The notes under the pieces: generated by a model
The model's database searches: none
What the model saw: the letters and a program-made list of their open reading frames with translations, nothing else
Told to the model about the DNA's origin: nothing
In this document: positions 16,356 to 17,527 of the stretch, piece by piece
Layout of the letters: every line of letters begins with the position of its first letter
Numbering within the stretch: position 1 is the stretch's first letter
Translations under genes and position numbers: made by a program
From: Bacteroidales bacterium
Lineage (GTDB): Bacteria; Bacteroidota; Bacteroidia; Bacteroidales; ML635J-15
Reading direction: 5' to 3'
Length of the DNA stretch: 53,270 bases
NCBI GenBank assembly: GCA_027858835.1
Contig: JAQIBY010000013.1
Coordinates: 1-53,270, forward strand

Positions 16356-17010
16356 ACTTTATTTCTCACGGATTAAACGCCTCACTAGTGTTAATAAACA
16401 AAAAACCAATTAGTTAAGATTTCTGTCAGATTGAATTTATATTACAAATTCAACTTATTTTCACTATGCTTTCTTTCAGTTTACAAAACTACACTAATTT
16501 AATGAATTGGGAAATTTTGCATCAAGTACAAATGTGTTTTCACTAAAAAAGTCTTACTGTAAACTTTGTGGGAGAAAATGAAAACATAGCAAATATCTTG
16601 GTTTGCGAAACACGGCTTCTTTGTCCTGTTTCAAACGGATATGCAGAACTTCTGAGTTGTACCGAGGAGAGTCGCAAAGATGCAGATTTTTTCCTTAGCG
16701 GTTCTCTGCGCTTCTTATGCGAAACTCTGCGTTACTAATTTATCAACTCAATCATTAACTGCATCTCGTTTAGTTAAAAATAATCCAAAATAATCCCTAT
16801 TCTTAAAAATATGACGTTTTTCAATCTAACGGTATAGAAGTAAGGTTTTTTTGACCTTCACCATCTTGTTAACATCGTAAAATCAAGCAAATTGTTAATA
16901 AGCTAAATAGCCGCATTATCGACTTGAATTACCAAAGAATATGCAGGGATTTATTTGTTAATATACTGTTGATAATCAAGTGAATTCATTGTGAATTTAA
17001 AAAGGCTATA
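16356..17010. other. Gene-free region with a degenerate repeat
   Basis: No coding frame with protein-like composition on either strand. The interval is upstream of both prfC (minus) and the candidate ncRNA (plus). The part 16640-16740 looks like a decayed dispersed repeat (see that entry). The rest is AT-rich and I see nothing else in it. Confidence 0.5.
16640..16740. repeat. Decayed dispersed repeat ('ctctgcg' type)
   Basis: Contains GAGGAGAGTCG (16664-16674), an 11-mer also present at 9465-9475 in the S23 element, followed by a run of related pieces such as agcggttctctgcg and gaaactctgcgtta. Such 'tctgcg' arrays are familiar to me as flanks of S23 and GxxExxY genes in Bacteroidota. No gene remains beside it here. 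Confidence 0.4.
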
Positions 17011-17014
17011 AAAC

Positions 17015-17046
17015 TTGACAAAGGGGGTGTCAATCATGTATATTTG
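17015..17046 (+). promoter_or_regulatory. Bacteroidota-type promoter with embedded dyad, upstream of the candidate ncRNA
   Basis: TTG (17015-17017), 21 nt, then TATATTTG (17039-17046), a perfect TAnnTTTG. Transcription should start near 17052. An inverted repeat TTGACA (17015-17020) / TGTCAA (17028-17033) covers the -33 region, which could be an operator. Confidence 0.65.
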
Positions 17047-17051
17047 AAACA

Positions 17052-17525
17052 CAGGTTAGAGATAAAGCCTGCTGAAATGGTTCAAATGTTTTGAAGAATC
17101 TTTTCTACGGATAAGAGAGTTCAAAGCAGGATTTCAGGAAACATTCCGGTGCGAACCGAAATGATAACAAGAAAACCCACCATGAAAGCCTGGTGACAAA
17201 CCAAAAGCAGAGATGCTGATGGTGAGCGCTCCGAGATGGAAACAACAAGGTGAAATCCCTTTGAATTGAAATCCGGCATTCAGGAAGCAAAGCAGAAATC
17301 TTAGGATGACTGTGGAGAAAAAGCTTAAAACTGAGCAATCAGTAAGAGCGAATGAATGAAAAATCCGAAAATGAGCTTAGTGCTCAGGACGGAAACGCTG
17401 ACTCAAAAGAATTCTGAAACAAGAATTTGAGAGGAAAGAAGGCAGAACTGTAAATCTGGCAGAATGTGGAGCTACGGCAAAGTATTTCTGGAGGGAACAT
17501 CAACATGGTGTTCCCTTTACTGTTT
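17052..17525 (+). ncRNA. Candidate long structured non-coding RNA, family unknown
   Basis: About 475 nt between a good promoter and a terminator-like hairpin, with no protein-like frame. Local hairpins include three with GNRA tetraloops: CGGT-GCGA-ACCG (17147-17158), AGCA-GAGA-TGCT (17206-17217) and ACTGA-GCAA-TCAGT (17330-17343). Others are TTCAAA/TTTGAA (17081-17095), CACCA/TGGTG (17178-17195), TGAGC/GCTCA (17372-17386) inside TCCG/CGGA (17364-17393), and CTCAA+ATTCT/AGAAT+TTGAG (17402-17431). Longer-range pairs include CCTGCT/AGCAGG (17068-17073 with 17125-17130) and GGATTTCA (17129-17136) with either of two TGAAATCC copies (17251-17258, 17267-17274). Unpaired stretches are A/G-rich on the plus strand, as in large RNAs. 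I do not see RNase P, tmRNA or SRP signatures. No downstream gene on this strand, so it is not a riboswitch leader. Confidence 0.6.
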
Positions 17526-17527
17526 TT
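17493..17527 (+). terminator. Terminator-like hairpin at the 3' end of the candidate ncRNA
   Basis: Ten-pair stem GGGAACATCA / TGGTGTTCCC (one G-T pair) with an ACA loop, followed by tttactgttttt. The interrupted T-tract makes it a moderate terminator. It also lies beyond the 3' end of the convergent minus-strand gene ending at 17585. Confidence 0.6.

Follow-up and report, generated by a model that had tools for sequence, protein, structure and literature searches.

To our knowledge, the large structured noncoding RNAs of bacteria include only a handful of classes whose function is unknown, most of them outside Bacteroidota. 6S RNA, for its part, is a rod of ~180 nt whose central bubble is bound by RNA polymerase. 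OLE RNA forms a membrane-associated ribonucleoprotein and an RNA dimer (PMC9723947, PMC12265935, PMC12286853), ROOL and GOLLD assemble into nanocages (PMC12286853), and the raiA motif, or ModT RNA, is a structured noncoding RNA conserved in many species (PMC11706538).

Here we analyze a feature at positions 17015-17527, plus strand, of a 53,270-nt stretch of Bacteroidales DNA (contig JAQIBY010000013.1 of assembly GCA_027858835.1; the whole stretch is called the window below). An earlier, sequence-only reading had taken it for an orphan, standalone, large structured RNA, and our analysis supports that view.

A candidate RNA gene with its own promoter and terminator

The promoter and terminator that had been proposed for the feature both hold. 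Its parts, several of which were recognized through the homologs described below, are the following:

17015-17020 (+): -33 promoter element TTGACA, from the sequence and from TTG at the same distance in homologs
17039-17046 (+): -7 promoter element TATATTTG (TAnnTTTG), from the sequence; conserved in homologs
17050-17077 (+): 5' box; matched by model R2 at 28.4 bits and best match in the window of a leave-one-out 5' HMM (E 0.63)
17052-17057 (+): 5' strand of P1, CAGGUU, pairing with 17453-17458; family covariation
17067-17070 (+): 5' strand of P2, GCCU, pairing with 17440-17443; family covariation
17072-17137 (+): helix of CUGAAAU (17072-17078) with AUUUCAG (17131-17137); compensatory differences in the congener G001
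17100-17115 (+): hairpin with cUACGg tetraloop, CUUUUC-UACG-GAUAAG, inside the preceding helix
17147-17158 (+): GNRA hairpin CGGU-GCGA-ACCG; GUGA loop and different stem in G001
17178-17195 (+): hairpin CACC ... GGUG, also present in G001, where its loop length differs
17206-17217 (+): GNRA hairpin AGCA-GAGA-UGCU; CACA-GAGA-UGUG in G001
17218-17439 (+): variable middle domain, its helices purely from thermodynamic prediction
17440-17480 (+): 3' box, with P2' AGGC (17440-17443), the conserved loop ACUGUA and P1' AAUCUG (17453-17458)
17472-17477 (+): CUACGG loop of the 3'-box hairpin
17489-17527 (+): intrinsic terminator, hairpin and T tract, from the sequence

TTGACA stands 18 nt upstream of TATATT, with 11 of 12 consensus positions matched and an overlap with the Bacteroidota -7 element. 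Of 60 copies of the RNA, 59 have TTG at the -33 spacing, whereas a control stretch gives 4 of 60. At the other end, the terminator hairpin (17489-17519) has 14 pairs and is followed by CTGTTTTTAT. Transcription would start at about 17050-17053 and yield an RNA of ~475 nt, whose gene is present as a single copy in the host genome. The numerous hairpins seen by the sequence-only reading go with a strong fold: the 475-nt transcript 17053-17527 folds at -134.1 kcal/mol, versus -107.3 +/- 5.8 kcal/mol for dinucleotide shuffles (z = -4.58), and none of 100 shuffles folds as low. GNRA tetraloops are present (GCGA at 17151-17154, GAGA at 17210-17213), together with a cUACGg loop at 17106-17109. The long-range pairing suggested between GGATTTCA and TGAAATCC fared less well. 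Both sequences exist, the first at 17129-17136 and the second at 17251-17258 with another copy at 17267-17274, but their pairing found no support; the congener favors another partner for AUUUCAG at 17131-17137, namely CUGAAAU at 17072-17078 (UUUUCA and UGAAAA in the congener). Elsewhere in the window, an intergenic stretch at 16640-16740 (GAGAGTCGCAAAGATGCAG...CTTAGCGGTTCTCTGCGCTTCTTATGCGAAACTCTGCGTTACT) presumably resembles a dispersed palindromic intergenic repeat.

The feature had also been said to hold no plausible protein frame, and our counts agree: the longest ATG/GTG/TTG frames within the locus reach 48-77 aa on either strand, and the longest ATG frames of the homologs are no longer than those of shuffles (median 35.5 versus 39 aa). 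Across the family the locus does not behave as a protein gene, as there is no conserved ORF, pairs covary and length varies from 283 to 644 nt. Nor does it behave as a cis-regulatory leader or riboswitch, since homologs share no conserved same-strand downstream gene. The next gene downstream in the window is on the minus strand, and the recurrent downstream genes of family loci, dnaG and a carboxyl transferase gene, are convergent. This frequent convergence makes cis-regulation unlikely; the commonest neighbor, dnaG, is convergent at 7 of ~60 loci, an adjacency consistent with inheritance of an old chromosomal location. No protein common to the RNA neighborhoods was found over ~60 loci, and a search of named genomes by way of the neighboring methyltransferase, whose best relatives come mostly from Bacteroidales and Marinilabiliales MAGs, turned up no copy of the RNA. 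Upstream at L114, L128, L129, L173 and L179, a divergent gene of ~280-333 aa recurs, and its copy at L114 is without a Pfam or NCBIfam match.

Searches against known RNA families

Rfam 15 comprises 4227 models, including RNase P, tmRNA, SRP, 6S, OLE, GOLLD, ROOL, raiA, HEARO and the group II intron, and none of these families matches. The whole window gave nothing at gathering scores, at the locus itself a snoRNA match, due to chance, was the only one at E <= 10, and 27 loci, mostly homologs, gave chance matches below threshold only. That the RNA is not RNase P, tmRNA or SRP, as had been suspected, is further borne out by strong matches to all three elsewhere in the same genome (RNase P at G000:C56, SRP RNA at G000:C122 and tmRNA at G000:C132). 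6S-Flavo (RF01685) gave no match in this genome, and the same model gave none in control genomes either. A group II intron origin was rejected, there being no domain V/VI (D5/D6) match at E <= 10. Looking into mobile elements, a strict pattern of the 5' box had no matches in 2.9 million viral contigs (IMG/VR), a pattern of the GCGA hairpin had five isolated exact matches of the chance type in viral contigs, and blastn against plasmids and phages returned chance matches of ~30 nt only. In the open-access literature, searched outside supplementary lists (such as that of PMC8040213, with thousands of candidates), we did not find such a Bacteroidota RNA described.

From a congener to a widespread family

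Among 100 related genomes, blastn gave a sole match, in the congener G001 (nhmmer E 1.2e-9 against the window). This copy lies at the end of a contig, on the minus strand, next to an exopolyphosphatase-like gene and in a genomic context unlike that of the window. It carries the promoter and the first ~170 nt of the RNA, and shares with the window copy the promoter, the start (AGGUgAGAGAUAAAaGCCUGCUGAAA) and the series of hairpins. Several of the differences from window to congener are compensatory: UUGA/UCAA becomes CCGG/CCGG, UGAAAU/AUUUCA becomes UGAAAA/UUUUCA, and AGCA-GAGA-UGCU becomes CACA-GAGA-UGUG; in another hairpin the loop changes from GCGA to GUGA and the stem is also different. A candidate for the 3' half of the RNA in G001 was discarded as a chance match, the flank there looking like an ATP synthase gene.

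The window and congener copies were aligned by hand, with N at gap positions, into a two-sequence covariance model, R1. Over 393 genomes of the order, R1 found five genomes of one other genus, three of them with E values between 2e-11 and 6e-10 and two with 6e-6 and 1e-4, as well as several single genomes. These copies, from another family than the window's, are full length, with the promoter, a common 3' segment and a strong terminator. R2, a 45-position model restricted to the 5' box, matched 75 of the 393 genomes at E <= 0.05. Both boxes, judged by eye or with a fuzzy pattern so that genome and family counts are approximate, were found in ~60 copies from ~57 other genomes of 24 other families of the order, and R3, a sequence-only model searched over the class, added ~18 genomes with both boxes from ~6 families of other orders. 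The RNA family spans about 30 families of Bacteroidota. Beyond the class, the sole phylum-level match inspected (L144) was weak and lacked the 3' box; it was dropped on inspection, as were the weak R1 or R2 matches L095, L096, L101, L102, L182, L185, L186, L190, L194 and L195, likewise without a 3' box.

The boxes are 200-580 nt apart in RNAs of 283-644 nt. Some genomes contain two or three copies. For instance, L191 (in G185) has tandem copies ~0.5 kb apart, at 1001 and 1485, and L160 (in G068) near-tandem ones at 1 and 1494, each copy with its own promoter box, and both G037 (L136, L164) and G154 (L133, L180) hold paralogs of two length types, with ~350 and ~450 nt between boxes. In G005, a genome of the window's own taxonomic family, a truncated copy (L198, reverse strand, ~1500-1600) consists of the promoter and the first ~90 nt without a 3' box. 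It lies directly upstream of a protein gene (MKKILFTISLQLLLGL...), which its promoter and leader may now serve.

The ends of the RNA form a conserved core

The consensus of the 5' box is AYCARGYGAGNGAUAAAAGGCY, and that of the 3' box RGYCAnAAUAACnGUArCYUGGCrC ... cUNCGg ... AGUGAACGGGAA, followed by the terminator. These two ends of the RNA pair as two long-range helices: P1 closes nearly all of the transcript, the variable middle lies inside P2, and the cUNCGg hairpin and the terminator come after P1'. The core alignment and the pair counts were hand-anchored on the two boxes and not on the pairing; the exceptions are three sequences from a single family, shifted by two bases, and the window copy, with manual gaps and one omitted base. 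In the 59-sequence core, the top six of 1431 column pairs by MIp all belong to P1/P2. Over 55 distinct sequences, the nine P1/P2 pairs are standard in 96.6% of cases and eight of the nine show two-sided changes. Their covariation score is 0.489; shuffles score 0.297, and slid partners reach 0.164 at most. Conservation and covariation, which the sequence-only reading had named as a check, were both strongly positive, in that a family was found and its top-ranked pairs form P1 and P2.

The internal loop between P1 and P2 is nearly invariant (5' strand UGAGNGAUAAAA, 3' strand AUAAUAACNGUA): GAG, GAUAAAAG, AUAAUAAC and GUA hardly change across orders, and the flanking helices covary. The middle domain is highly variable in length and sequence across the family, and its subgroup alignments contain many two-sided changes, for example at 63 of 157 pairs in five sequences of family f8. 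Two further elements were abandoned. One, a 5' hairpin GUGAG/CUCAC of model R2, suits only part of the members. The other was a pseudoknot pairing CNGUA with the CUACGG loop; in many members it is CAGUA that faces CGG, and the loop is compatible with a UNCG tetraloop.

Proposed role and alternatives

We think it probable that the window locus is a noncoding RNA gene of a widespread, uncatalogued family, whose folded product acts in trans through the core made of P1, the internal loop and P2. P1 and P2 are long-range helices between the opening ~25 nt and a segment that precedes the terminator by ~50 nt, and a fast-evolving middle domain, rich in GNRA and UNCG hairpins, is inserted within P2. 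The RNA would act in trans as a stable folded molecule. Its core would be the functional site, where a protein or a second copy of the RNA binds or where catalysis may take place, and its variable middle arms would provide packing or scaffolding, much as in OLE, ROOL and GOLLD. The conservation of the core loop suggests a ribonucleoprotein, a scaffold or a catalytic RNA acting in trans; a role in ribonucleoprotein or RNA assembly, in the manner of OLE, ROOL and GOLLD (PMC12286853), appears the most likely, catalysis being its main competitor and a 6S-like role a lesser one. We are evenly divided on the broader proposition that this is a new large noncoding RNA class, ancient in Bacteroidota, in which the core formed by the ends is a catalytic site or a site of RNA-only or RNA-protein assembly, and the middles, of ~200-580 nt, are lineage-specific.

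A ribozyme with its active site in the internal loop would account for loop strands that are near-invariant across orders amid helices that covary. We nevertheless hold it to be unlikely: known Rfam ribozyme families give no match, and the conserved ends and spacing between promoter and 5' box point to a transcript that stays whole, which speaks against self-processing of its ends.

The window copy is a divergent family member. The leave-one-out 5' HMM matches G001 at E 4e-9 and the window at E 0.63, and the corresponding 3' HMM did not detect the 3' box of the window, so that membership depends chiefly on the congener. The order of the 3'-box elements in the window (AGGC, ACUGUA, AUCUG, CUACGG) arose in none of 20000 dinucleotide shuffles, a figure that is indicative only, the pattern having been written post hoc, and forcing P1 and P2 in a constrained fold of the window copy costs 5.5 of 135.6 kcal/mol. 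One could see in this weak 5' box and unrecognized 3' box a decaying, non-functional member of the family, all the more since the same taxonomic family has the truncated copy of G005 and nearly all genomes of genus g3 are without a match, the sole exception being chance-like only. However, the promoter and the terminator are intact, P1/P2 complementarity is kept with different base pairs and the congener retains the 5' hairpins through compensatory changes, and we judge decay quite unlikely.

A 6S-like regulator, in which the P1/P2 stem and the A/U-rich loop near the ends mimic an open promoter and bind RNA polymerase, is very unlikely given the length of the RNA (283-644 nt versus ~180-200 nt for 6S), its large structured arms and its incomplete distribution in the order (a 5'-box match at E <= 0.05 in 75 of 393 genomes); the long-range closing stem, the asymmetric A/U-rich bubble and the strong, constitutive-looking promoter would suit it, as would the failure to find 6S-Flavo in the genome, though that search matched no control genome. 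Equally improbable is a trans-acting sRNA or sponge that base-pairs with mRNA through the fast-evolving middle, because, for all that the gene is standalone and ends in a Rho-independent terminator, the structured ends are the most conserved parts and the middle is folded into stable hairpins without an exposed conserved seed.

Comparison with known large RNAs

Some 30 family-level lineages of the class carry this RNA and Rfam missed it, which may be because its carriers look largely uncultivated (draft, MAG-like assemblies). Genomes of families f128 and f174, outside the order, come near isolate quality by their appearance. The precisely defined core of the RNA makes mutational tests straightforward, and cryo-EM and ribozyme assays gain a new target in this family. 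Like the large ornate noncoding RNAs, it exceeds 250 nt, has a conserved complex structure and no ORF, and is standalone, as far as its predicted transcript tells. On comparative grounds, we would place it in a new class of standalone structured noncoding RNA with no related known family.

6S and 6S-Flavo RNAs share with it a stem that closes the ends and an internal bubble, but the window RNA is two to three times longer and has no Rfam match to them at the locus. Group II introns, including circularly permuted ones (PMC8637638), are likewise large, ORF-less and structured; unlike them, with their exons, the window RNA ends tightly at a promoter and a terminator, without a domain V/VI match. 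The raiA motif, or ModT RNA, belongs to different phyla (Bacillota and others) and has no Rfam match to the window RNA. ROOL and GOLLD are also large, with many structured hairpins and no protein coding, but they too have no Rfam match to it. OLE RNA (~600 nt) is likewise standalone, large, ornate and of unknown biochemical function, but it belongs to a different phylum, Bacillota, and neither the window RNA nor its homologs have an Rfam sequence or structure match to it. In its general kind, then, the RNA family resembles these other large orphan noncoding RNAs.
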